Positions 9,858 through 23,058 are shown, numbered from the stretch's first letter. The stretch is 38,611 nt of DNA from Candidatus Kapaibacterium sp. (GCA_018882585.1 VFFB01000012.1:1-38611), one strand, 5' to 3'. The notes: generated from the sequence alone by a model not told the origin. Translations and numbers: made by a program.

Positions 9858-10583
9858 ATGCACGCCACACCTTCGAACGATACACCAATAAGCCGCATAC
9901 AGCACCAGGCTGACGTCCTTTCGCTCTTGGCGCATGATCTGCGGGGCTCGCTTGCAAATGTGCATGCCGCACTCCACGAGGCGATCGCCTGCCTGAACGA
10001 TGCCGTCGAACCGGATACGGTCACCCTGTTGACGGATTCCGAGCTTGCCATTGAGCGCATGATCGACGCCGTTGCGTCCATGATGGTCCTCGCCCGGGCT
10101 GATCGGCTGCAGATCGATATGGTTGACCTTGGCTTCGTCTTGCCGGACATCCTGGACCAGCACAGGCCGCATGCCGACGAGAAGCAGATCGTCCTTGACG
10201 GTCCCGACACAACGGGCGACCTGCCATGGCTGATGGCCGACAGTACGGTTCTCGGCGTGATCCTCGGCAATCTTGTGTCAAATGCCGTCAAGTACTCACC
10301 CAATGGCAGCACGGTCCGAATCTGCGCATCGTCGGCCGACGATGGCGTGGCGATTGATGTGATCGACGAGGGGCCGGGAATCCCGCCCGAAGACGTCGAA
10401 CGTCTGTTCGAACAACCGGGCACGCTGTCGACCCGCCCAACAGGCGGCGAATCTTCAACCGGACTTGGACTGTATCTCTGCGCGCGCCTTGCCAAACGCA
10501 TGGGGGCGAGACTTATGTATGCGGCTGCCGATCAGGGTGGGACCAAGATGACACTGCTGTGCTCACATGCAAAGCACTCCTGA
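9858..10583 (+). CDS. Soluble orphan sensor histidine kinase
   Basis: 241 residues with no transmembrane segment and no recognisable sensor (PAS, GAF or HAMP) domain. The phosphoacceptor helix has LLAHDLRGSLANV with His26. The HATPase_c part has the N box LGNLVSNAVKYSPNG (Asn142), G1 box DEGPGIP (170-176) and G2 box TGLGLYL (201-207). It would autophosphorylate His26 and pass phosphate to a response regulator, but none is encoded in the window. The input may come from a partner protein binding the short N-terminus. It is the only gene in its transcript, diverging from nuoM and converging on the barrel gene at 10764. Confidence 0.9.
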   Translation: MHATPSNDTPISRIQHQADVLSLLAHDLRGSLANVHAALHEAIACLNDAVEPDTVTLLTDSELAIERMIDAVASMMVLARADRLQIDMVDLGFVLPDILDQHRPHADEKQIVLDGPDTTGDLPWLMADSTVLGVILGNLVSNAVKYSPNGSTVRICASSADDGVAIDVIDEGPGIPPEDVERLFEQPGTLSTRPTGGESSTGLGLYLCARLAKRMGARLMYAAADQGGTKMTLLCSHAKHS

Positions 10584-10669
10584 GCAGCATGCGATCTTCT
10601 ACGCTTGGTAGATCCAAACAAGGACAGCATTTTGTCGCGCACCTTTTACCGCTCGTGCGAACGCAGACG

Positions 10670-10687
10670 GCGGCGGGCAACCGCCGC
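10670..10687. other. GC-rich hairpin in convergent intergenic region
   Basis: Perfect 7-bp GC stem (10670-10676 with 10681-10687) closed by a GCAA tetraloop, in the 180-base gap between the convergent kinase and barrel genes. No T tract follows on either strand. A second small inverted repeat (cacgtc/gacgtg) lies about 20 bases further right. It is probably a bidirectional transcription or RNA-stability element; the rest of the gap shows nothing I recognise. Confidence 0.45.
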
Positions 10688-10763
10688 ACCGGTCTGACGC
10701 CACGTCGGTGACGTGCAGTTGAGGTCAGGCGGGCATGCACCAACGTGTATGTCCGCTGTTGTT

Positions 10764-11525
10764 TCATAGAATGCGCTTCGATAGCGTGACGCCGATTTGG
10801 ACGCTTATCGGCATCCAGCCACCTATGCCGTCAGGCCCTTTACCGGCGCCAACCGCGACAAATGGCGTGCAGTACATCCCCGTGTTTCCGTGCATCCCAA
10901 CCATGATGTCGCGTCCCACGCCAAGATTGCCGCTCAGCCTCCACGCTGCAGGCAGTCGCGACCGATGACGCACAGCAGCCTGCTCAAGGTGATACGGCAA
11001 CACAGCAGCATTGAGTTCACGCTGCCAAAGGATGGTCGCATCATCGCCTATGGGAAGGTCGGCACGAAACCCAAGCATGATGTGCCAGCCCGCCGTGCCG
11101 AAGGCTCGTCGCCCTTCGGCTAGGATCGTAACCACGGGCCGATCCTGCGTCAGATCAAACACAGCATTCCGCACCGAGGTATCAGCGGTCACAGGCGTCG
11201 TCGTTCGCGCAGTCAGACGTTGCAGCCCAAGTCCGATTCCAGCAGTCAGGGCATGCAAGGACATCGCCGGACGATACGTGCACACAGCAACGGCCGATGC
11301 ACCGACGATCGTTCCGCCAGGCAGGCTGATGGTCATAATGTCGGCGTTGGGTGCCGTCCCCAGGGTGAAGGGTAGTTCAATTGGCCCCGACGTGATGCCC
11401 GCTACTGCCATCCCGCGCACGCCCAGCATCCAGGCGTCGTCGGCATGACCGCAGCGCATGACATTGCCCCCTATCAGACACTGTAGCAGGAAGACAAGAA
11501 TGATCGGTAAGGGGCGAGGGTTCAT
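10764..11525 (-). CDS. Predicted outer-membrane barrel, last gene of the surface operon
   Basis: 253 residues with a hydrophobic signal sequence (MNPRPLPIILVFLLQCLIGG). The mature chain alternates amphipathic strands and turns (AVAVCTYRPAMSLHALTAGIGLGLQRL, WHIMLGFRADLPIGDDATILWQ split by loops, WRLSGNLGVGRDIMVGMHGN, PISVQIGVTLSKRIL), consistent with a small beta barrel. No catalytic motif is seen. Its ATG overlaps the stop of the T9SS-like gene upstream (ATGA), the same cargo-then-barrel arrangement as at 4405. I do not recognise the family. A role as surface anchor or exit partner for the preceding secreted proteins is inference from position only. Confidence 0.6.
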   Translation of the reverse strand: MNPRPLPIILVFLLQCLIGGNVMRCGHADDAWMLGVRGMAVAGITSGPIELPFTLGTAPNADIMTISLPGGTIVGASAVAVCTYRPAMSLHALTAGIGLGLQRLTARTTTPVTADTSVRNAVFDLTQDRPVVTILAEGRRAFGTAGWHIMLGFRADLPIGDDATILWQRELNAAVLPYHLEQAAVRHRSRLPAAWRLSGNLGVGRDIMVGMHGNTGMYCTPFVAVGAGKGPDGIGGWMPISVQIGVTLSKRIL

Positions 11526-12832
11526 CGAAGGTGCTGCGCTTTGAGTACGATGCGTGACAACTCGTCGATGCTACGGTCATCAATGGGATGACCAATGATA
11601 ACGATGTTGACTAAACCCTGCGAGGCGATATCGCCCACGTTGAACGATGCACGGTAGCCGCTGCCGCGCTGGACCATGAGGTTGACCATCGGGTGTCCAT
11701 CGGCATCAACAAGGTCGCCCAGCTTGTTCCCAAGCACGTCATATGCCGCGGCGTCGATGCGCAGACGGTCGTCGGCATCAAACAGCACGTCAACGCGATC
11801 ACGAAAGGGATTCCGCAGTACGGAGGCATTGCTGACGATGGCATTGGGAATGTGCACGACGGCCGTATCAAAGATGATGCGATCGCCGCGACCAGCTCGC
11901 ACACCTACAAGTCGATAGGCATAGGCTTCTCTGCGGTACTCCACGCCATCGAGAATGTCATCGACCGTGCGTCCCTTATCGCACGTGCCGCAGGCTGCCA
12001 ACGATGTGTTGTTGGCATAGTCGAGATTGGCACGGGCCTGAAACTCGAGAACGTTTGGCCGACGTCGGTCTACCAGCGCTCGTTCGATCAGGAAACCGTC
12101 GAGCTGCTCTTCGCACACGGTTGAGAAGCGAAGCTGCACCGAGAGGTCTCCGCGATAGAGGGCTTCGAATGCCATGATCTGGACTGAATCACAATCAGGC
12201 GTCGTGGACGACCCGATGCCATATCGTGTTGCGATCTCGACATTGTCGTGGCGTCGGTAGACGTAGACTTCCTGTCCTGCCGCTGTGATGATACTATCCT
12301 GGACAAGTTTCGCCGCATGTGCCTGCCAGACTTCGGTGGGCTCGGCAAAGGCGAGCTCTGTCGATATGGCACTGCCATCGACCGTCGACAGTGCAAAACG
12401 TCCAATACGTATGGTTGGACGAGTGGCCGACAGCTGGATGGTTTGATCCAAACTGTCGGGACCGTAGACCAAGATGCGTATCCGTCCCTGAACGATATCA
12501 GCCGTGCAGGTGTAGCCGCGCATCTGCGTTGCGTCATACGGCACCAGAGCGAGATCACTGCTTCCCGGAACGAGATCAATACGGTGGACGCCCGCGATCA
12601 GGCCACCGGTCTGCCGCAACGCAACGGCTTCGATGCGCAACGTCGTGTTCGCCCAGTGCTGCCACGAGTCGTCAACACGTGTGACCACAACGTCGAACTC
12701 GACGCGGTCCTGCCGCTGGTCATCGACCATCAACAGCGAGATCCTCGCGTCAACCTTTTGCGCATGCAGCGATGCAGTACCCAGCATGCTCAGGGCCAGC
12801 ACTGCAACGACGATAAGATTACGGTACTGCAC
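11522..12832 (-). CDS. Secreted protein with T9SS-like C-terminal domain
   Basis: 436 residues starting at GTG 12832, which lies inside the 3' end of the upstream gene (14-base overlap). It has a signal peptide ending SLHAQ near residue 25. The N-terminal half is beta-rich without recognised family motifs. There is a Cys-containing stretch, AACGTCDKGRTVDD, near the middle. The C-terminal ~100 residues begin RNPFRDRVDVLF and contain AAYDVLGNKLGDLVDADG, the NPF...YDxxGxxv layout of T9SS type A sorting domains, although the tail (VLKAQHLR) is atypical. It is probably surface exposed. The coupled downstream barrel may be its partner. Function unknown. Confidence 0.7.
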   Translation of the reverse strand: MQYRNLIVVAVLALSMLGTASLHAQKVDARISLLMVDDQRQDRVEFDVVVTRVDDSWQHWANTTLRIEAVALRQTGGLIAGVHRIDLVPGSSDLALVPYDATQMRGYTCTADIVQGRIRILVYGPDSLDQTIQLSATRPTIRIGRFALSTVDGSAISTELAFAEPTEVWQAHAAKLVQDSIITAAGQEVYVYRRHDNVEIATRYGIGSSTTPDCDSVQIMAFEALYRGDLSVQLRFSTVCEEQLDGFLIERALVDRRRPNVLEFQARANLDYANNTSLAACGTCDKGRTVDDILDGVEYRREAYAYRLVGVRAGRGDRIIFDTAVVHIPNAIVSNASVLRNPFRDRVDVLFDADDRLRIDAAAYDVLGNKLGDLVDADGHPMVNLMVQRGSGYRASFNVGDIASQGLVNIVIIGHPIDDRSIDELSRIVLKAQHLR

Positions 12833-14903
12833 CTGCGCGTCCCCTGTTGTTCCAGATCAGGTTGAGATCGTTGGTGCCAAGGATACCGTCAAGCGATACA
12901 TCAAGAGGCAGATACCCCTCATCGTTCAGGGGCACCGGCCAGATGATGTCATCACGACCGATTAGGTTCGAGATGTCGACATCACCCGCTGGCATGGCCC
13001 AGCGGCGCTGCCCATCCTGCACTCCGGCAAAGACGAGTGATGCGGGCCCGCCGAACACGCTCTCGCCACGGCTAAGGTCGGCGGTGATCTCGCCCTCGCC
13101 AGGTCGAACGATAAGCGGTTCAGCCGTCATGACCGAAAGGTGATTGCGATGGTGGAGCGCCATGTAGTAGCGTCCAGTTCGCACTTGACGCGCAGTCACT
13201 CGAAACGTGGTCTGCGGGTCGACAACGTGACCGTTTGCCGAGAGCAGACCGGGATAATAGTATCGGCGACCACCGGTGACCTCGCTGCGCAACTCGACAA
13301 CGATCCAGTCAACAATGGAATCGGCAAGAGGTAAATGCGCACTCACGCCACCACCCGACCACAGGTCAAATGGATAGCCCGAGGGCGACGTGGTCGGGAT
13401 CACGTCGTTGGTACGCAACGTTGTCCGCATCCGAGGTTCGGCATCGGCCGCTCGCGTAACCAGCGCTCCCTCCAGAAACGCCCGAACATCCAGTACGACA
13501 GATGGCGTTGTCGACGACAGACCAATGGCAAAGTCTCCGTTTGCAACCACGCCTCTGCTGATGCCACGTCGCCACTGCGGCCGCATTGGATCGCCATTCG
13601 TCGGCAGATCACTTACGCCGTGGTCGACGTAATCCGAGCCGTCATACCGCAACAACATAAGCGAGTCGAGCATCGAGCGCAGACCATCACGGACTTCGAT
13701 CACCGTATCTGTTTCGACCGGTGCGGTCGGCTGCACACGCCACGCATAGCCGACGTCGGCGCGGAACGTACTGTCGGCCACCGGCCGACCATCCTGATCA
13801 AGCATCGTCAGCTGATAATACCTGCGCACTTTGTCGACACTCCCTGCTGCCTGTGGCGGCATGGTCAGCCGCTTTGTTCGCAGTGAGATCGCAGCGATGC
13901 TTCCGCGATCTGCCACATCGTTGAATCGCACGTAGGTGTCGATGGCATTCATCTGCAACGCCCTACCTATGTCGACGTTCGTGCGAATCAGCGTACCGTC
14001 GACCTCTGCCCACGGACTCGCGCATGCGACGTCCTTGGCCGAGTTGAAAGTCAGTACATATCGCTGCGTGATGTCGGGCTCGGTATGGATGTGTCCGCCA
14101 AGGACCAGATCACCATGCACCGTCAGGTCGTGCGACAACGTGATGCCACCAAGATTCTCCTGCAGCAAGCTCGCCACCACGTCTCCACCTGTCGGCATCT
14201 CGGCACCGGTGCGCACCAGCCGCGTACCATAGTACCGCAGATTCATGACACCTGCGGGGATAGGGGGCGAGGTTATACTTCCGGCGTCACTGCGCCATAG
14301 CCATGCGGAATCCGCAAGCATCAGCCAGCCGGCGGAGCGAGCTTCGACGATACCATCCTGGAGGTCCAGCCGTCGCGTGATGCTCAGCATGGCCTGGTCC
14401 AACAGCTGTATCGTCGATCGATTCGCGGTTTCGAGAACAGGTACGACGCCTACACCCGACAGTCGCTGGGGTCGATCGCCGTCGAGACGCAGCGTTGCAT
14501 CGCCCACGTCAGACGACATCCTTCCGTTATGCTGCACACCGCCCCGTGCCCGAATGGGCTGCGGCGTCTGCATGATGATCTGCGCTTCGACCGACGTTGC
14601 GAGCATCGCTTCGACGGTAAGCGCTTGCGCCGTATCGTCGACGATCTTGCGAGATGCGCCGGCGACGTAGAGCGACTCGTAGGAGACCGAGGCCACACGC
14701 TGCGTGTCGGCACCATCATCGCCGATATATTCGACGTGACCGCCGATCGAAGGCTGCGCGATCGTCGCATCTCCGTGAATACGCAGACGTCCCGTGTTAA
14801 CAATGATGCCCTCGCTCTGCAGCAGGCCATGCGTCGATTGCGCAAACGCTGTTGCTGCCACCAGGAATACCGCGAGTGCCGCATACCAAGCAAGACCGAT
14901 CAT
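12819..14903 (-). CDS. Large secreted repeat protein with dockerin-like C-terminus
   Basis: 694 residues with a signal peptide (MIGLAWYAALAVFLVAATAFAQ). The N-terminal half has repeated beta units of the form xxYxGxxxQ...YxxL...L, such as LRLDGDRPQRLSG and LRYYGTRLVRTG, like the filamentous repeat stretches of Bacteroidota surface proteins. Residues ~575-590 contain YYMALHHRNHLSVMTA, a motif common near the ends of so-called hemagglutinin proteins of Bacteroidota. The C-terminus has two calcium-loop-like segments, DVDISNLIGRDD (641-652) and DVSLDGILGTND (668-679), spaced as in a type I dockerin, then NNRGRAGAVP. It is coupled to its upstream neighbour by ATGA. It probably acts outside the cell as an adhesin or scaffold partner. 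The calcium and cohesin-binding idea is inference. Confidence 0.75.
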   Translation of the reverse strand: MIGLAWYAALAVFLVAATAFAQSTHGLLQSEGIIVNTGRLRIHGDATIAQPSIGGHVEYIGDDGADTQRVASVSYESLYVAGASRKIVDDTAQALTVEAMLATSVEAQIIMQTPQPIRARGGVQHNGRMSSDVGDATLRLDGDRPQRLSGVGVVPVLETANRSTIQLLDQAMLSITRRLDLQDGIVEARSAGWLMLADSAWLWRSDAGSITSPPIPAGVMNLRYYGTRLVRTGAEMPTGGDVVASLLQENLGGITLSHDLTVHGDLVLGGHIHTEPDITQRYVLTFNSAKDVACASPWAEVDGTLIRTNVDIGRALQMNAIDTYVRFNDVADRGSIAAISLRTKRLTMPPQAAGSVDKVRRYYQLTMLDQDGRPVADSTFRADVGYAWRVQPTAPVETDTVIEVRDGLRSMLDSLMLLRYDGSDYVDHGVSDLPTNGDPMRPQWRRGISRGVVANGDFAIGLSSTTPSVVLDVRAFLEGALVTRAADAEPRMRTTLRTNDVIPTTSPSGYPFDLWSGGGVSAHLPLADSIVDWIVVELRSEVTGGRRYYYPGLLSANGHVVDPQTTFRVTARQVRTGRYYMALHHRNHLSVMTAEPLIVRPGEGEITADLSRGESVFGGPASLVFAGVQDGQRRWAMPAGDVDISNLIGRDDIIWPVPLNDEGYLPLDVSLDGILGTNDLNLIWNNRGRAGAVP

Positions 14904-17059
14904 GGCAACCCCACCGACAGGATCCCGGCGTTGGTGACGGTCGCACCCGGGCTTACGAGCAATCGCGGCGTGCTGAACTCAGCCGACGGATACACGACGA
15001 GTCCGCCATCGATAGGTCTGTTCGAGATGTCCTGTTCAGCGACATCCACAGGTGACGTCGCCCTGCGCTGCACGCGCACAACCGACGTTGGTGCGGGCAC
15101 GAGTGAGAACGCATAGGCTGCAGCATCACTGCCAACAAGCAATGCCGAGTTCGGCTGATCGCCGATTTCAACGCTGGACGCCATCTGCGTCGGAAACAGT
15201 TCGGCAATGCGATAGCTGTCGGTTGCACGCTCGTACCCCACGTGGACCGTATAGCCATTGATCATCACAGCGTCTTGTGGCTCGGGCTCTCTGCCCTCGT
15301 CCCAAGTCATTGGATTGCTCCATCGCCCATGAGCAATGGCCTGCAGTACATCACGGCTGCCACGCAGCAACACATCATAGCCACTGGGAATCACCATGTT
15401 GTCTGGTCCGGTACTACCAAGCCCCTTCAGCTCGACGTAACCCATGACATCTGCTGCCGCGGCACGGCGCGCATACGAGGGTGGAAGCGTCGGCACAAGC
15501 TTGGTTGCCAATTGCTGCGGCCGATCCGTTGCCCGCATGAAGCGCAGCAGATGCTGCGACGTCGACGTCGCCCACGCTGAAGGAAGGTCCTCGATCGTAT
15601 AACCAATACGTATCGTTGCCCTCCAATCGCCAAGTGCCGAGAGGGTTACTTTTCGTCGCACGTCCGTTGACGCGTCATAGACTACGGGGTCGGTCTTCGG
15701 CCGAACATCCAATGTCAGAATCGTTGGAGTCGAGTCAAAGGTCAGCAGCGTTTGTGCGTTGTTGTATGCGAATGTCGTTCCCGCTGCAGCCGTTCGGAGG
15801 TCCCTGCGCATTGCTCCTATCACTTCGGATACACCGGAATAGTCTGCAACGCCGTCTCGCATGGCCACGGTATCAGCACCGGCATCGATCATGGCCGAGT
15901 GAACGTATAAATCACGCTGAAGATGGACGTTGCCGTCGACAGTCTTACCGCCCTGTGCGGCTCGGAGACTACCATATGCCGCCGCCGGCCCGGCCGCGAG
16001 GATCGTCTGCGGTTGACGTCCCTCGTAGTTCACAAGCGACGTGGCAGCATAGGTCGCGTTGGCGTGCTGTCCGAAAGCATTCACGTAGACACCTCGAATG
16101 CGAAGCTCTGCAGTATCGCCCACGTGCAACAAGGACGAGGCAGCATCATATAGCCGTAGCAATGCACTTGTGTCAACAACGGTGGTTGATGTCGGCCGCA
16201 TCAGCAGTCTACCATCCACAACATCGACAGTATCAGTAAACCAGGTCGAGTCTGCCGTCGTAACATGCCCTCCGTCTTCGATGCGCAGGTTCGCGGCAAC
16301 GCGTGCTTCGCTGCCCCATGTCATACGACCCTGTATGATGGTGGGAGCTCTCGACTCGATGCGCAGGATCTGCTCGACGATCGTGCTGTCACCCTGCGCA
16401 AGACGCTTCGGCCCATTTCGCAGCAACAGATGCCGGTACCGGTCGATGCCTGACACTTGCCCATATTCCGGGGTCAAGGTCTGCGGACGATTTCCATCGA
16501 AGATGAACCATCCTTCGTAGCGACGCGCACCGCCTGCAGCTTCGTACGATCCGGCAACAGCTGTCCCGTCTAAAATCTGCTTTGTGGCTGCGCCGCCGAG
16601 TGCAAGGTCCGTATAATGCCGACGTTGTATGCGCTGCAGTCCGGCACCACGAACGAACCGGACCAGGCCTCCGATACGCGACAGTGTGTCGCGCCCCATC
16701 GCCGTTGCACCATCTGCATCACCGGATGCATCGGTGAACAGGTGTTCCGATCCGGTGATCTCGATCGTACCCATGTTGACGATATCATTGAGAGGGGCAG
16801 CGTTCAGCCACATTGATGTATCGGCGACAAACGTGATGGTTCCGCTATTCGCACATGCGGCTGCCGTCGCGGTATGGATGACTCCGTCAACGACGATACG
16901 TCCTTGATTGACGATCGTGCCGTCGTCGAAGAGGTCTCCGTGGATAGATACGAGCGCGTCGCGGCCGACGACCATGCGTTCACCACGAATGGCTATTCCC
17001 TGGGCATGACCAAGGGTTGCGCACAGGAGGCAAAGCGTCACGATTGCTGTGCGGCTCAT
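14900..17059 (-). CDS. Large secreted beta-repeat protein, adhesin-like
   Basis: 719 residues from ATG 17059, chosen because it overlaps the preceding stop (ATGA) and begins a clean signal peptide (MSRTAIVTLCLLCATLGHAQ). An upstream in-frame start would prepend 14 residues unlike a leader. The first ~100 residues are a beta-helix-like ladder (VSIHGDLFDDGTIVNQGRI). Three repeats start near 132, 185 and 343, the latter two with FDGNRPQTL and YEGRQPQTI, the GxxxQTI unit typical of Bacteroidota surface fibres. Near 578 is GRWSNPMTWDEGREPEPQD followed by YTVHVG, a GxWsxxxTWxxGxxP module common in T9SS-secreted proteins. No catalytic residues and no clear sorting domain are seen. It is a paralogue-like partner of the next gene down. 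Function unknown; adhesion or filament role is inferred. Confidence 0.75.
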   Translation of the reverse strand: MSRTAIVTLCLLCATLGHAQGIAIRGERMVVGRDALVSIHGDLFDDGTIVNQGRIVVDGVIHTATAAACANSGTITFVADTSMWLNAAPLNDIVNMGTIEITGSEHLFTDASGDADGATAMGRDTLSRIGGLVRFVRGAGLQRIQRRHYTDLALGGAATKQILDGTAVAGSYEAAGGARRYEGWFIFDGNRPQTLTPEYGQVSGIDRYRHLLLRNGPKRLAQGDSTIVEQILRIESRAPTIIQGRMTWGSEARVAANLRIEDGGHVTTADSTWFTDTVDVVDGRLLMRPTSTTVVDTSALLRLYDAASSLLHVGDTAELRIRGVYVNAFGQHANATYAATSLVNYEGRQPQTILAAGPAAAYGSLRAAQGGKTVDGNVHLQRDLYVHSAMIDAGADTVAMRDGVADYSGVSEVIGAMRRDLRTAAAGTTFAYNNAQTLLTFDSTPTILTLDVRPKTDPVVYDASTDVRRKVTLSALGDWRATIRIGYTIEDLPSAWATSTSQHLLRFMRATDRPQQLATKLVPTLPPSYARRAAAADVMGYVELKGLGSTGPDNMVIPSGYDVLLRGSRDVLQAIAHGRWSNPMTWDEGREPEPQDAVMINGYTVHVGYERATDSYRIAELFPTQMASSVEIGDQPNSALLVGSDAAAYAFSLVPAPTSVVRVQRRATSPVDVAEQDISNRPIDGGLVVYPSAEFSTPRLLVSPGATVTNAGILSVGLP

Positions 17060-18324
17060 GTTCCCTTCCGTGCGATCACCTGCCATTGATCGCCATCCCA
17101 TATCATGAACACAGCCTCGCCACCCGAGAGCGTTCCACTTGTCGAACCAACATTCAGGTTCGTACCGGCTAGCGTAAACTTGTTTCCATTACCAGCGGCA
17201 TCGTTCTGCACGACAAGGATCTGACCGATCACGGCGCCGTCTTCGAGGTAGACACTACCAACGTTACCCGTGGGCAGCAGCCGTATGTAGGCCGCCGTTG
17301 AGGATGGCAACGTCATGTTCGCTGTGACGGAGCTGGTTGTGTAGTTCGAGAAAGCACTGATCGACAACGGCGACACGGACGTTACGCGCCATGCCAGGTC
17401 GGCCTGTGAATAGACAAACGTGGCTGTAGCACCGGGTGTGATCACGAAATCGTTGCCGTCGGTAGTCAACACACGATTGCCCGCTGTGGATGATGTAGCG
17501 TTACTCGGGATGACCATGTTCTCGGCGGTGGCATTCGTAATGCACAGCACCTTCCCGTCTGTCCCGCCTGCAAAGCCGGTCCACGTCGACGCAGCCGTGA
17601 TCGTGCCCGTGACATGAACGTAGCTGCGATTGTTCGATGTGCCGAAGTCCACGTTGTGATGTGGTCCAACCGACGTAACAGTGTGCGTCCGTTGTCGATA
17701 TGCCACTGCACCGTTCACATCAAGGTCGGTCCGTGGCGTACGCGTCTGCACCCCTACCCGTCCGGACAGAAGGGCCGCATAGTTCACCGTAGCTCCGATC
17801 GCCGACGCATCAATGGCAACCGACGTATCGGCACTGCCTGACAACTCAATGCTGAGTCCCCGTCGATAGGGACCTCCGGTTGACGTACTTCGCAGAGCGA
17901 GCACGGTGTCGGCAGACGTCACCGCCCCATCGCGCAACAGTCGGAGCCCGGGCGACGTCGTCGACGTGGCCGTAATGGACAGACGCTTTGCCGTAGAGTC
18001 AAAGACAAATGACGCTGATCCGCGAAGCGATGATGCGCCGGTGAAGAACGGCACCTGGCCGGCAGTGCCAAGGAGCGACGGCGCAGCTGCAAACGATGTG
18101 ATGCCTGTGGAGCCATCAACAGACAACATCCACGTACCCGGCGTTAGCTGCTGCGGCAGCACCAAGGTGTACGGCACCGTCGAAGCCGGTGCATATAGTG
18201 AAATCGCCTGCTGATTATCCCCTGCTTCGAGCCGGATGCCCTTGAATGCTTCGTACGATGTCTGTGCCGAGAGTGCGGCGGCAGACATCAACATCAGAGC
18301 AGGCAGGATTCGTCGTAGCGTCAT
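17056..18324 (-). CDS. Secreted tail-fibre-like protein with two W-ending modules
   Basis: 422 residues with a signal peptide ending ALSAQ near residue 21. The head (ISLYAPASTVPYTLVLP, then WMLSVDGSTGITSF) matches the YxLxLPxxxxxxxxLxxxxG lead-in seen in phage tail fibres and many Bacteroidota surface proteins. VGVQTRTPRTDLDVNG, mid-protein, is the VGIGTxTPxxxLDVxG motif of the same class. Two related C-terminal modules follow: one near 235-315 ending in ADLAWRVTSV, and the last ~90 residues ending in FMIWDGDQWQVIAR. The second resembles the end of the neighbouring 216-residue protein. It starts 13 bases after that gene. It is probably a trimeric or fibrous surface protein; the target is unknown. 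Confidence 0.72.
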   Translation of the reverse strand: MTLRRILPALMLMSAAALSAQTSYEAFKGIRLEAGDNQQAISLYAPASTVPYTLVLPQQLTPGTWMLSVDGSTGITSFAAAPSLLGTAGQVPFFTGASSLRGSASFVFDSTAKRLSITATSTTSPGLRLLRDGAVTSADTVLALRSTSTGGPYRRGLSIELSGSADTSVAIDASAIGATVNYAALLSGRVGVQTRTPRTDLDVNGAVAYRQRTHTVTSVGPHHNVDFGTSNNRSYVHVTGTITAASTWTGFAGGTDGKVLCITNATAENMVIPSNATSSTAGNRVLTTDGNDFVITPGATATFVYSQADLAWRVTSVSPLSISAFSNYTTSSVTANMTLPSSTAAYIRLLPTGNVGSVYLEDGAVIGQILVVQNDAAGNGNKFTLAGTNLNVGSTSGTLSGGEAVFMIWDGDQWQVIARKGT

Positions 18325-18337
18325 GGCGGGTTAACTC

Positions 18338-18988
18338 TTAGTTGTTTCGACGTGACAGCTCGATCCACTGCAGCGATACGGCATCCCAGAGCAGCGTCAT
18401 GGTATCGTTATTCAGCAGGTCGGCATCACCCGACAGTACCAGGTTGCCGGCGTTATCGATCATACGGATGCCGAAACCCGCATTTGGGGTAGCAACTCGC
18501 AGCACAACCTGCTGTCCGTTTACCAAGCCATTCGCCAAACCGATAACCCGGTTTACGGGCGGAGCATCCGGCGTGATCCGCAGCACCGATGTTCCGGCAG
18601 CGACAGGGATTACCATGTTGTTCATCAGCACGGCAATGGGCTGCACCTGTATCGGCTGCGGCTGGGTCCAGGCAGGAGCGCCGTTCACGATGCCAAGCAC
18701 CGTTCCGTTCGCTCCTGCCGGCAACCACGAGAGTGCCACATCATTCGCGCTGCCGTTGACTGACGTCAACAGCGCGTGATGGGCATTGACGGTATCGACT
18801 GGCAGACGAAGCACGTAGTTCCGAGGCATGGCAGAGGCTGCCTGTACCGACACATGATGCGTTCCGGACGTGCTCAGATGCCGCATCTCCGTTGCTCGCA
18901 CGGGAAGCTCCTGACCTTGCAGCGTCTGGGCGATCGCGACGCACAGAACGGCAATGAAGAGAATCTGAAGTGGACGTCTATCGTTCAT
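18338..18988 (-). CDS. Short secreted tail-fibre-like protein
   Basis: 216 residues from ATG 18988; an in-frame GTG lies 12 bases upstream (19000) but the ATG gives the tidier leader (MNDRRPLQILFIAVLCVAIA). The mature start ELPVRATEMRHLSTSG resembles LPVRTRSLQLLGTG of the upstream neighbour. NYVLRLPVDTVNAHHALLTS matches the YxLxLP lead-in of tail-fibre heads. The C-terminal module ends MTLLWDAVSLQWIELSRR, related to the end of the 422-residue protein downstream. It is essentially a head plus one module, the minimal version of the family. It sits 35 bases after the preceding gene and is probably co-transcribed. Confidence 0.7.
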   Translation of the reverse strand: MNDRRPLQILFIAVLCVAIAQTLQGQELPVRATEMRHLSTSGTHHVSVQAASAMPRNYVLRLPVDTVNAHHALLTSVNGSANDVALSWLPAGANGTVLGIVNGAPAWTQPQPIQVQPIAVLMNNMVIPVAAGTSVLRITPDAPPVNRVIGLANGLVNGQQVVLRVATPNAGFGIRMIDNAGNLVLSGDADLLNNDTMTLLWDAVSLQWIELSRRNN

Positions 18989-19023
18989 GTCGGAAGTCAC
19001 TACGCTTCACCACGTGAGCGCCA

Positions 19024-20007
19024 TTACGGATTTGCGTTTGCAGCCCACATGATGGTTTCGGTCCCGACCATGGGTGCTGTAGACTGGATTGTGAATCCTG
19101 TGAGCGTCACATCGGTGATCTCGATAATCGTACCGTTCCCGCTTAGCAGGTTTGCCGTCACGGTGATATCTGTCGCCGTAACTGGTGCGGCAAATGCCAC
19201 CGGGAATGTTACGGTATGCGAATAGCCCGCTGTGACGGCTTGACGACCCGACTTGTAGTATCGGTTCGGATTGGCCGTCCATGTTGCGGTCCCATCGCCG
19301 TTCGACACGTAGATGTAACTCGCCGTCGCAGCACCGGCCGCATTCGTCGAAGGCGTTACGGTATACGTACCGGCAGGCAGCCCATCAACCTGGATGGTTG
19401 CATTGTTTGCCTGATTACCGGTCGCAATCGTAATGGTGTTGGCACTTCCATCATTCATCACCAGTGAGCCCGACGTGGCACCTCCAAGCGTGAGCGTACC
19501 GGTCTCGCCGGCAATGGCTGCATTCACCGCACCGGCAGCAGTCTGCACTTCCAGGAGTCCAGCTGCAGCACCGGTCACACCTCCACCGATCATGACCTTG
19601 CCATTCGCATCGAAGCGGAAGGTAGGGTCCGAGGCTAGGGTATTCTGGTCGGTGAAATACGCAATCTCATTCCCGCCGCCATCGACATTGCCTTTCCCGT
19701 CGATGATGTTGGCCTTTTCCCACTCCAGACGCATTGTTCCTGCTGCTGTCATACGGGCTTTTACGTAGCCACTGTCGCCGACAACAAACGGCGTATTGAC
19801 GCCAGTTGCCGCGCCGTCTGCCAACGGCCACTCAATTGTATATGCCGTCACGTTGCCTGTTGCCTGCATCGTGATGGCTGTATTGTTGCCGGTGCCCAGC
19901 AACTGCAGTGATCGCGTCCGTACCGGAAGCTGTGCGTATGCTTCAGATGCGAACAAGGCCGATGCGATGGCAATGACTGTCCACCGCATGATGGTCGAGA
20001 ACTTCAT
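19024..20007 (-). CDS. Secreted tail-fibre-like protein with lectin-like C-terminus
   Basis: 327 residues from ATG 20007, set by a strong Shine-Dalgarno GAGGGG 7 bases upstream and a normal signal peptide (MKFSTIMRWTVIAIASALFA...AYAQ). A longer reading to 20109 has no leader. The head LPVRTRSLQLLGTG and YTIEWPLADG lead-in link it to its neighbours. The middle is low-complexity and rich in Gly, Ala and Thr. The C-terminal ~75 residues (TDITVTANLLSGNG, then FTIQSTAPMVGTETIMWAA) resemble the C-terminus of the 283-residue protein upstream and the beta-sandwich tips of tail fibres with H-type lectin fold. It is probably a surface recognition protein; the ligand is unknown. Confidence 0.72.
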   Translation of the reverse strand: MKFSTIMRWTVIAIASALFASEAYAQLPVRTRSLQLLGTGNNTAITMQATGNVTAYTIEWPLADGAATGVNTPFVVGDSGYVKARMTAAGTMRLEWEKANIIDGKGNVDGGGNEIAYFTDQNTLASDPTFRFDANGKVMIGGGVTGAAAGLLEVQTAAGAVNAAIAGETGTLTLGGATSGSLVMNDGSANTITIATGNQANNATIQVDGLPAGTYTVTPSTNAAGAATASYIYVSNGDGTATWTANPNRYYKSGRQAVTAGYSHTVTFPVAFAAPVTATDITVTANLLSGNGTIIEITDVTLTGFTIQSTAPMVGTETIMWAANANP

Positions 20008-20052
20008 GGAAGTACCCCTCGGAACTGTGAAGAAAAACACGTGATGTGCCAG

Positions 20053-20078
20053 GCCACGTCGTCGTGACGGGACGTGGC
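20053..20078 (-). other. Leader hairpin before the 327-residue protein gene
   Basis: Perfect 8-bp stem (20053-20060 with 20071-20078) around a 10-base loop, in the 98-base gap between the first two genes of the surface operon. On the minus strand a TTTTT run follows about 20 bases after the stem, just before the strong Shine-Dalgarno. A weak TAnnTTTG-like box (minus TGTATTTG, 20086-20093) lies upstream, so this may be the leader of an internal promoter. It could equally be a processing site. Confidence 0.4.
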
Positions 20079-20105
20079 GTGTGAGCAAATACAAGGGAGA
20101 GAGCG

Positions 20106-20957
20106 TCATCGATCGACCACCATCCAGTTGATTGCCTCGCCGGGGTTCAAGCCTCCGGGAAAGCTGATGGTGAACCGATCGGCCAGACGCGACGATCGAA
20201 CGATGAAGGGGGTAATGCTTACCGACGTGACCGATTCAGGCGTAACGGTGATGCTGGCCTCTGCACTCAGGGCCGTCGCCGTCGGGACCACGATGACAAC
20301 ATTGAACTGGACCTCGTTCGTGGCATTCACATAGCGGCCGGCATGCACACCAAGAATGGTAACGAGTGCTGATCGATCGGCCTTGACCAGGCGTCCGTCG
20401 CCAAGCGCGACCACCGGTCCGGCCATCGCAAGGTCGAGCCCGACTTCGGGCTGGCCGGCAAGTGACGTCATGGTGATGCGACCGTCTGTGCCGTCAATGC
20501 GCAGACGTTCAGTGTTGTTTGTCACAATTCGGAGCGTCGAGGCATCAGTCGAACCAAGAACGGCTTCCGGCGGCAGGTTGGCATTACCTGTAAGGAGCCA
20601 GACTTGATCGGCGCCGACTGCATCTTGTCCGGCCGCAAGGGTCCGCCATTGCGGCAGCAGCGGCGTCCCAGCATTGTATTCGAACCGCAGTTGCGTCACG
20701 TTGAAGACAAGTAGGCCCGTAGCGGGCAGCATGATGGCATCACGCTCGATCGTCGAAAGTCGCGGTATCAGCAAACCTCTGTCGCTGGCAACAAGATCAA
20801 GGATCGCCGATCGGTCCGGTGTGAGCGTTCCGATGCCAACGTTCCCGTCCTGTGCCTTCAGTGCTCCGCCGTAGGCGAAAATCACGAAGGCCCAGGCCAG
20901 GAATGCTCCGACCTTTCGCCGACAGATTCCCGTCGACGACTCCGTCATGGCGTACAT
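20106..20957 (-). CDS. Secreted tail-fibre-like protein, first gene of the surface operon
   Basis: 283 residues from ATG 20957. GTG at 20969 and ATG at 20948 are alternatives; a GGAG sits too close to the GTG and rather far from the ATG, so the start is uncertain. The signal sequence has an unusual n-region (TESSTGICRRKVG) before a hydrophobic core, ending LKAQ. NVGIGTLTPDRSAILDLVAS followed by RGLLIPRLSTIERDAI and GLLVFNVTQ is the classic VGIGTxxPxxxAxLDxxSxxxGxLxPRMTxxxRxAI layout of Bacteroidota tail-fibre-like surface proteins. The C-terminal ~80 residues (ASITVTPESVTSVSI, then FTISFPGG and EAINWMVVD) resemble the end of the next protein. Probably surface exposed; function unknown. Confidence 0.72.
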   Translation of the reverse strand: MYAMTESSTGICRRKVGAFLAWAFVIFAYGGALKAQDGNVGIGTLTPDRSAILDLVASDRGLLIPRLSTIERDAIMLPATGLLVFNVTQLRFEYNAGTPLLPQWRTLAAGQDAVGADQVWLLTGNANLPPEAVLGSTDASTLRIVTNNTERLRIDGTDGRITMTSLAGQPEVGLDLAMAGPVVALGDGRLVKADRSALVTILGVHAGRYVNATNEVQFNVVIVVPTATALSAEASITVTPESVTSVSITPFIVRSSRLADRFTISFPGGLNPGEAINWMVVDR

Positions 20958-21047
20958 GTTCAACGCCACGGTCTCCTGTGTTGTGTACGTGACCTCGGAT
21001 CCACTCCGGCCCCTTACCGGAATGCCCCTCGTTGAATGGACGGACCG

Positions 21048-21828: not shown

Positions 21829-23058
21829 TCAGCGCCGTCTGATCACCACCACGGTCCGGTCATCGGTATAGCGGGCACCTGCAGAGAACGTCACCACATC
21901 ATCCATGAGCGCCAATGCAATCTGCCGTGCATCGCTCTGGTGGTGTTCGGCCAGGAATGTGCGCAGTCGTGCCTCGCCAAAGATCGTGCCATGTACGTCC
22001 TGCGCCTCGCTGATGCCATCGGTGAAGAGCAACAGCACATCGCCATGGTCCATGTTGATGTTCTCGACGTGAAACTTCTGCTCCTCGACGATACCCAGGA
22101 TACCGCCGGTTGGCTGAAGTCCGCGGCACGTTCCGTCGGCAGCCGAATAGTGAAGTGGCGGACAGTGCCCGGCGTTCACATACAGGACAAGACCATTGCT
22201 CGATGACGTGAGTTCACATAGAAACAGCGAGACGAAGCGCTCCAGCGGAAAGGTGTCGTAGATCAGATCGTTCAGTCGTCCAACAAGCGACGACATCTTG
22301 ATGTTGAAGCCTGCTCCCATTCGCATGGCACCGCTGACGAACAATGCCTGGACGGCTGCCGGCATCCCCTTGCTTGCAGCATCCGATACGACAATGCTCA
22401 GCCGTTCGTCGTCGCCGGGCGATGCCAGATAGTCAAAATAGTCGCCACCCACAACGGCATCGGGTGAAGAGATGCCATAGACATCGTATTCGCGAAACGT
22501 TGTCGCATGGTCCGGCACAAGGCCGCGTTGGATCTCCCATGCCTGGTCCAGGTCGCGCCGCAGTCTGTGCTCACGTTGCGTGGCTTGCATCGTACGCAAT
22601 GCTGTTGTCGCGACACCTCCAACGACGACGAGTGTATCAGTGAACTCATCGCTGTGTTCCTTGGCGGTAAAGGCCAGGGCATACTGAAACAGTCGGCCCT
22701 GCTGGCGGCGCTGAAGATCGCCGACACCGACCATGGAATACGTTCGTGCGTGGCCTGCCTCGGTCTTCGCATCAACGACAACCGTGCGCGTTGTAGCGAG
22801 CATCGACAGCGCGGGGATATCCGTGGTTGACCGACGTGTTCCTTCGGACAGGAACTCTACTTCGCCTTCCTGATGACGAAGCGTGTAGATCTCATCGACA
22901 GGATCGAGCTCCCAGATACGGCCACCGGTAACCACGAAGCGATCGTCCTCGACAATGTCATGCACCAGGGACCGAAGCATGTCGAGGGGTGTTGCGTGTG
23001 TCTGCGACAGCAGGTGATCGATCAGCTTATAGGTCGACCGTTGATAGCGGCCGCTCAT
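21829..23058 (-). CDS. PP2C-type serine phosphatase (SpoIIE/RsbU-like) with N-terminal sensor-like region
   Basis: 409 residues. Residues ~1-160 look GAF-like, with alternating strands and helices and no transmembrane segment. A coiled linker (~158-185) ends in EIQRGLVPD, the usual QxxLLP-type entry to the RsbU phosphatase domain. Metal-binding acidic residues are in GGDYFDY (Asp206), VSDAASKGMPAA (Asp226), LFTDGISEA (Asp347) and TDDRTVVVI (Asp399/400). Such enzymes dephosphorylate anti-sigma antagonists in partner-switching pathways, but no STAS antagonist or HPK-like kinase is adjacent. Its ATG overlaps the LON-domain gene stop (ATGA). It is the last gene of the long suf transcription unit. 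Confidence 0.88.
   Translation of the reverse strand: MSGRYQRSTYKLIDHLLSQTHATPLDMLRSLVHDIVEDDRFVVTGGRIWELDPVDEIYTLRHQEGEVEFLSEGTRRSTTDIPALSMLATTRTVVVDAKTEAGHARTYSMVGVGDLQRRQQGRLFQYALAFTAKEHSDEFTDTLVVVGGVATTALRTMQATQREHRLRRDLDQAWEIQRGLVPDHATTFREYDVYGISSPDAVVGGDYFDYLASPGDDERLSIVVSDAASKGMPAAVQALFVSGAMRMGAGFNIKMSSLVGRLNDLIYDTFPLERFVSLFLCELTSSSNGLVLYVNAGHCPPLHYSAADGTCRGLQPTGGILGIVEEQKFHVENINMDHGDVLLLFTDGISEAQDVHGTIFGEARLRTFLAEHHQSDARQIALALMDDVVTFSAGARYTDDRTVVVIRRR

Follow-up and report, generated by a model that had tools for sequence, protein, structure and literature searches.

A conserved operon of Kapabacteriales that may encode a modular, envelope-anchored surface assembly exported by the type IX secretion system

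A 38,611-nucleotide stretch of DNA from Candidatus Kapaibacterium sp. (GCA_018882585.1 VFFB01000012.1:1-38611; the window) carries an operon of eight minus-strand open reading frames (ORFs) at positions 10764-20969, g1 to g8 in order of transcription. The operon is real, and its gene order is maintained across families within the Kapabacteriales. We suggest, with a probability of roughly 0.6, that it encodes one modular cell-surface assembly, exported by the type IX secretion system (T9SS), anchored in the envelope and most likely adhesive, in which g6 docks onto g7. An initial annotation of the window had proposed that the genes supply the parts of one extracellular structure, such as an adhesive fibre. 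That proposal is borne out in large part; the conserved operon is established, and the joining of the products in one structure, adhesion, the docking of g6 on g7 and the role of g8 as an anchor for g7 are steps that we infer.

All eight ORFs were confirmed, and the spacings between them, from g1 to g8 (-4, +23, +13, -46, -4, -14 and -4 bases, the fourth becoming -4 if g5 begins at its 719-residue start), would fit a single transcript. The run of consecutive genes with short gaps and signal peptides described initially was borne out, with gaps of no more than 23 bases and a hydrophobic stretch with a plausible cleavage site at 8/8 N termini, as judged by a simple heuristic and not by SignalP. 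No promoter or terminator pattern at the operon rose above shuffle expectation. An 84-residue ORF at 10513-10767, considered as a ninth gene, was dropped because it overlaps the convergent kinase gene and has no family match.

Conservation was assessed in 60 genomes of the order, including that of the window (G000, 2.79 Mb), with neighbouring loci gene-called by a simple procedure that greedily accepts the longest ORF first. Each of g5 and g6 occurs in 47 of the 60. A set of 70 named loci, in which the copies come mostly from metagenome-assembled genomes labelled Kapaibacterium or Ignavibacteria, overlaps the relatives' set, so that the two sets of order counts are not independent; NCBI places Kapaibacterium in the class Eximiradiia of the Bacteroidota. 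Among testable named loci, g5 and g6 are same-strand neighbours in 50/54 and g6 and g7 are neighbours in 51/53, while g7 is followed directly by g8 in 29/54 and by c16, a WD40 protein, in 17/54. Because gene order is conserved, the clustering is far beyond chance. That the order would be shared by relatives had been anticipated, and it is shared across families, with genes fused in order: g5 and g6 form a single protein of 1457-1549 residues in family f7, and shorter fusions in family f9 retain the helix of g5 and the tail of g6 but not the g6 helix. In several families c16 (L147:15312-17201) is a WD40 beta-propeller encoded between g7 and g8, and its C terminus looks by eye like a T9SS sorting domain.

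The operon also disappears as a unit. Thirteen of the 60 genomes are missing g6, and at the empty sites of four genomes (G002, G007, G010 and G022) nuoM, pth and w20 are contiguous, with the operon, the kinase gene and the SpoIIE phosphatase gene all gone and full-length g7 likewise missing from the genome. Since the whole operon, full-length g7 included, is absent in these four cases, it has been gained or lost as one block. A g5 profile applied to a phylum-wide sample of 395 genomes recovered 26 genomes of the order and, outside it, one weak case.

Cohesin and dockerin are the snap-together protein pair of cellulose-digesting bacteria, and in its predicted fold the N-terminal domain of g7 looks like a cohesin. 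In the g7 model (pLDDT 92.4), residues 26-208 were matched by VIA to cohesins 4fl4 (Z 9.9), 3l8q (9.4), 2b59 (9.3) and 5m0y (9.3) and further to 3fnk, 5k39 and 2bm3 (each Z 9.0); among the matches listed, those confined to this region are all cohesin chains. Residues 215-330 are FN3-like, and residues 330-436 matched the C-terminal domain of PorU (6za2; Z 10.1, root-mean-square deviation [rmsd] 2.4, 92 residues aligned), the C-terminal domain of g7 resembling type A. Por_Secre_tail was recognized in 9 of 32 members of the g7 family, weakly (best 2.8e-4), and through its region 338-406 the g7 profile also matches many further proteins encoded in these genomes. T9SS markers pervade the order (SprA_N in 59/60 genomes, Por_Secre_tail in 60/60). 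The protein was initially described as a T9SS-like cargo, which stands for its sorting domain and is now refined to a cohesin-like fold followed by FN3 and the C-terminal domain.

Its putative partner, g6, was one of two proteins initially read as large beta-repeat proteins, a character that g5 retains as far as its sequence can be read; g6 is better described as a tailspike-like beta-helix protein ending in a dockerin-like tail. The helix in the g6 model (pLDDT 85.9) was matched by VIA to tailspikes 5w6p (Z 11.3, 243 residues aligned, rmsd 5.0) and 6f7k (Z 11.2); Foldseek with the same model returned no match at E<=0.001, the tailspike helices emerging from a second look with VIA. Beyond the helix, residues 466-640 gave low-scoring matches (Z 4-5) to prealbumin/CnaB-like domains. 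At the C terminus, D668, G673, D679, N685 and N686 are invariant across 51 sequences of the g6 family, 8 of which carry Pfam Dockerin_1 (best 1.8e-5). A loose calcium-loop pattern found at least one loop in 39 of 40 tails and two in 19 of 40, and the top sequence match of the tail profile in the PDB was 5lxv_B, the dockerin partner in a scaffoldin complex, albeit weak (E 0.11).

The initial designation of g8 as a barrel was sound, and the protein can be placed more exactly as a truncated member of a family of OmpA-anchored barrels. Outside the window's family, g8-type proteins join a barrel to a C-terminal, peptidoglycan-binding OmpA domain; OmpA was recognized in 17 of 28 family members (best 1.7e-19) and OMP_b-brl_2 in 7 of 28. 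In the alignment the OmpA part is absent from family f1 and from the window's g8, and the domain has been lost in the window's family. The earlier statement that the operon includes no known secretion component is restricted to translocon parts, because g7 has a secretion signal and the g8 family consists of OmpA-type outer-membrane proteins.

The tail and its candidate receptor travel together. The cohesin-like domain of g7 is present in 46/60 genomes, as a single copy everywhere except in G044, which has two additional weak fragments, and the g6-type tail in 47/60; both occur in 46, neither in 13, the tail alone in 1 and the cohesin alone in 0. G028 and G054 are the more telling cases, in which g7 lies on a different contig and is still kept alongside a g5-g6 fusion. 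In families f4, f8 and f10 the same tail occupies the extreme C terminus of other secreted proteins, of 358-5573 residues; in the window's genome g6 is the sole tail-bearing protein. Secreted proteins of 4136 and 5573 residues at L178 and L188 (genomes G031 and G034) end in an immunoglobulin (Ig)-like module and a dockerin tail with two good calcium loops.

The four genes upstream of g5 behave differently from those that follow. In the window's family the median product of coverage and identity is 7 for the fibre cassette against 34-48 for g5-g8, and the number of fibre genes varies between genomes; g1-g4 are the variable part of the operon and g5-g8 the constant part, and the fixed, graded gene order seen in the initial annotation does not hold for the fibre genes. 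The g1 protein carries a head motif, NVGIGT..P..SA.LDL...G.L.PR, and clusters with the fibre group of its relatives; orthologues of g2 are present in 5 loci of family f1. Phage_depo_C was recognized in g4 (Pfam 7.2e-13, 49.3 bits against a cut-off of 25), and weak matches below the cut-off were obtained for g3 (Phage_depo_C, E 0.0037) and g2 (Gp53-like_C, E 0.0087). Other families have at the fibre position one long fibre (approximately 1000-1300 residues) or a giant protein of approximately 3000 residues. Many loci also contain c5, a small helix-type protein that precedes g5; a remnant of it within g5 or g6 of the window was considered and rejected, and c5 is treated as missing from the window because its profile found no match in either protein. 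In two near-identical genomes (g5 97%) the fibre gene beside c5 differs (L052:10702-12918 and L054:6350-8647), with a middle part about 97% identical and ends far lower, a mosaic pattern. The C termini of g5, c5 and the L147 giant protein have a common short ending, N.G.(I/L).(V/I)G.

The assembly that we propose would present swappable fibre tips on an invariant base fastened to the outer membrane. On this model, the C-terminal domain of g7 would direct that protein through the T9SS, after which it would stay at the outer membrane beside the barrel protein g8; in most lineages g8 would grip the cell wall through its OmpA domain. The cohesin-like domain of g7 would receive the Ig-like and dockerin-like tail of g6 and, in some families, those of the giant tail-bearing proteins; g5 and, in many lineages, c5 would extend the base, and the tail-fibre-like proteins (here g1-g4) or the giants of other families would form the outermost, variable parts and contact the substrate. 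The proteins without a sorting domain, g1-g6, perhaps cross the outer membrane by riding on g7. A bolder version, which we hold only tentatively, is that the operon specifies a distinct surface organelle, widespread in Kapabacteriales, that carries swappable phage-tail-like tips and giant proteins on a T9SS-exported, wall-anchored receptor by way of a noncellulosomal cohesin-dockerin pair, dockerin-tagged proteins possibly being exported as passengers of the cohesin protein.

Several observations weigh against the proposed assembly. The g7 domain could not be identified as a cohesin by sequence, with no match in Pfam Cohesin, none at E<=10 in a PDB hmmsearch and a probability of 1% in hhalign against three type I cohesins; for a beta-sandwich, VIA Z scores of 9-10 are no more than moderate. 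Confidence in the g6 model is low over the dockerin region (pLDDT 41-55), and the first calcium loop is degenerate both in the window and in family f7. No T9SS sorting domain was recognized in g1-g6 (no Por_Secre_tail or CHU_C at their C termini), the tail is also present in further classes of Bacteroidota where no g7-type cohesin was detected, and the co-occurrence of tail and cohesin is not fully independent evidence because linked genes are lost together. The operon might thus encode co-regulated surface proteins that form no single complex, the fibres, helix proteins and barrel being displayed separately and the likeness to cohesin and dockerin reflecting a shared fold and calcium loops. 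The missing sequence match of g7, a g6-g7 interaction that we infer, the occurrence of the tail elsewhere and fibre genes that differ in number and kind all suit such an arrangement, which we nevertheless consider rather unlikely given the strict conservation of order, the g5-g6 fusions, the block-wise loss and the persistence of a single cohesin with the tail even where the two are unlinked.

Other explanations require a more specific machinery. A gliding-type apparatus like SprB-SprF, with a giant adhesin on an outer-membrane shuttle moving along a track, would accommodate the giant secreted proteins upstream and the barrel downstream in many families, as well as the T9SS of these genomes. 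It is improbable, in that the barrel matches OMP_b-brl_2, with no PorP/SprF family listed at E<=0.1 for the 28 g8-family members, the C-terminal domain of g7 resembles type A, and a static complex is suggested because of the OmpA wall anchor. The display of enzymes by cohesin-dockerin pairs, as in a cellulosome, would account for the folds of g7 and the g6 tail and has a parallel in the T9SS-anchored cohesin scaffoldin with dockerin enzymes inferred in Cloacimonadota (PMC8542988), but we judge it very improbable: no catalytic or enzyme domain was found in any operon protein, in a scan that did not cover the tail-bearing giants of other families, there is only one cohesin, and g6 has no tail-bearing companion in the window's genome. 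We give least credence to a domesticated phage tail or particle, despite the tail-fibre and tailspike-type folds; all eight genes have signal peptides by the heuristic, the operon is conserved over many families, no phage structural genes were noted in the loci, and searches of the eight proteins against NCBIfam and PHROGs were uninformative, the latter giving only weak matches of unknown function, none below E 0.01.

The g7-type cohesin is nearly confined to the order, with one other match beyond it. A 745-residue protein outside the order but in the same class (L213:8258-10495, genome G269) has a g7-like N-terminal domain, Big_1 repeats and a sorting domain that is weak. At five loci outside the order (L214, L215, L216, L217 and L221) a dockerin-tailed protein is followed by a protein of 363-413 residues in which an FN3-like region is accompanied by a clear Por_Secre_tail; proteins of this build encoded next to tail genes outside the order score between 6e-9 and 1e-14 for that domain. 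The N-terminal domain of g7 matched those of similarly built proteins in other classes with a probability of 93% when the set included two direct matches; homology is suggestive only, because the probability falls to 29% (E 5.8e-4) without them.

On one side the operon is bordered by nuo genes and a histidine-kinase-like gene in convergent orientation, and on the other by pth and a SpoIIE phosphatase gene (Table 1). G006 has an orthologue of the kinase-like gene at its operon locus. Within the family of the window, the operon adjoins TPR-HisKA kinases or the SpoIIE phosphatase. The gene for the OmpA barrel is followed in many other families by those for a single-domain response regulator and a CHASE-PAS-HisKA sensor kinase (L147:18624-21201, L127, L156 and others). 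Sensory control of the operon is suggested because kinases, response regulators or SpoIIE phosphatase adjoin it across families, and the joint absence of the HATPase_c and SpoIIE genes from the four empty sites hints at a dedicated switch.

Table 1. Operon genes, their domains and flanking genes in the window
Feature	Positions	Strand	Description
g1	20106-20969	-	287 aa, or 283 aa from a later start; secreted, tail-fibre-type; variable module
g2	19024-20109	-	361 aa, 327 aa from a plausible later start; secreted, tail-fibre-type; variable module
g3	18338-19000	-	220/216 aa; small secreted fibre-type protein
g4	17056-18324	-	422 aa; secreted fibre protein with Phage_depo_C beta-sandwich
g5	14900-17101	-	733/719 aa (start may be 17059); secreted repeat protein, constant base part
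g6	12819-14903	-	694 aa; secreted beta-helix protein with C-terminal Ig-like and dockerin-like tail
g6 residues 25-367	13803-14831	-	Predicted parallel beta-helix, phage tailspike type
g6 residues 455-694	12822-13541	-	C-terminal tail module (Ig-like and dockerin-like); ends giant proteins elsewhere too
g6 dockerin-like end	12822-12995	-	Second calcium loop DVSLDGILGTND intact; first loop degenerate
g7	11522-12832	-	436 aa; secreted; predicted cohesin fold, FN3 and T9SS-type C-terminal domain
g7 residues 26-208	12209-12757	-	Cohesin-like domain
g7 residues 330-436	11525-11845	-	T9SS C-terminal sorting domain
g8	10764-11525	-	253 aa; outer-membrane barrel protein
Histidine-kinase-like gene	9858-10583	+	Possible regulator; HATPase_c 1.9e-22; convergent to operon
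SpoIIE-type phosphatase	21829-23058	-	Upstream of operon; SpoIIE 3.2e-40

Literature searches found no paper describing the operon and nothing relevant on Kapabacteria with a T9SS or adhesin, and the initial view that no named system has this composition stands. The present analysis proposes an identity that can be tested for an operon that persists throughout a widespread and mostly uncultured order, in which these searches found no surface structure described. If docking occurs as proposed, a cohesin-dockerin pair would be used here to build a surface structure and not to display enzymes, and the T9SS would have a route for carrying proteins that lack a sorting signal of their own; the principle may be general, because similarly built pairs, a tail gene followed by a gene with a C-terminal sorting domain, occur in other Bacteroidota classes.

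The operon is partly like PorE-type operons and partly like cohesin-dockerin attachment, and has the full composition of neither. In Flavobacterium, operons that combine a T9SS cargo, a barrel and the OmpA-type PorE have been proposed to encode static, wall-anchored complexes (PMC12618676, PMC9143113). With these systems, which pair a type B cargo with a PorP/SprF shuttle and PorE, and with PorP-PorE-PG1035 of Porphyromonas, our operon shares a cargo beside an outer-membrane barrel and an OmpA-type wall-binding part, but here a single protein, from a different barrel family, unites barrel and OmpA, the C-terminal domain is type A-like, and the cargo has a cohesin-like fold and is encoded beside beta-helix and fibre proteins that lack such a domain (PMC12618676, PMC9143113). 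In SprB-SprF of the gliding apparatus, too, a large surface protein that depends on the T9SS has its own outer-membrane partner (PMC12635249), whereas in our operon no PorP/SprF family was listed for the g8 barrel, the anchor is of OmpA type and the C-terminal domain belongs to another class. Type II cohesins of cellulosomes bind dyads of an X-module and dockerin (PMC4582956), and the surface-bound cohesin-like fold of g7, with a partner ending in an Ig-like module and then a dockerin-like part, recalls that arrangement; here, however, there are no operon enzymes, a single cohesin per genome without a sequence match to known cohesins, and anchoring by the T9SS in place of surface-layer homology domains. 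The scaffoldin of Cloacimonadota also unites cohesin with a T9SS-type sorting domain and has dockerin partners (PMC8542988), but that protein is a large multicohesin scaffold for enzymes, whereas g7 is small, has a single cohesin and is encoded within a fibre operon.

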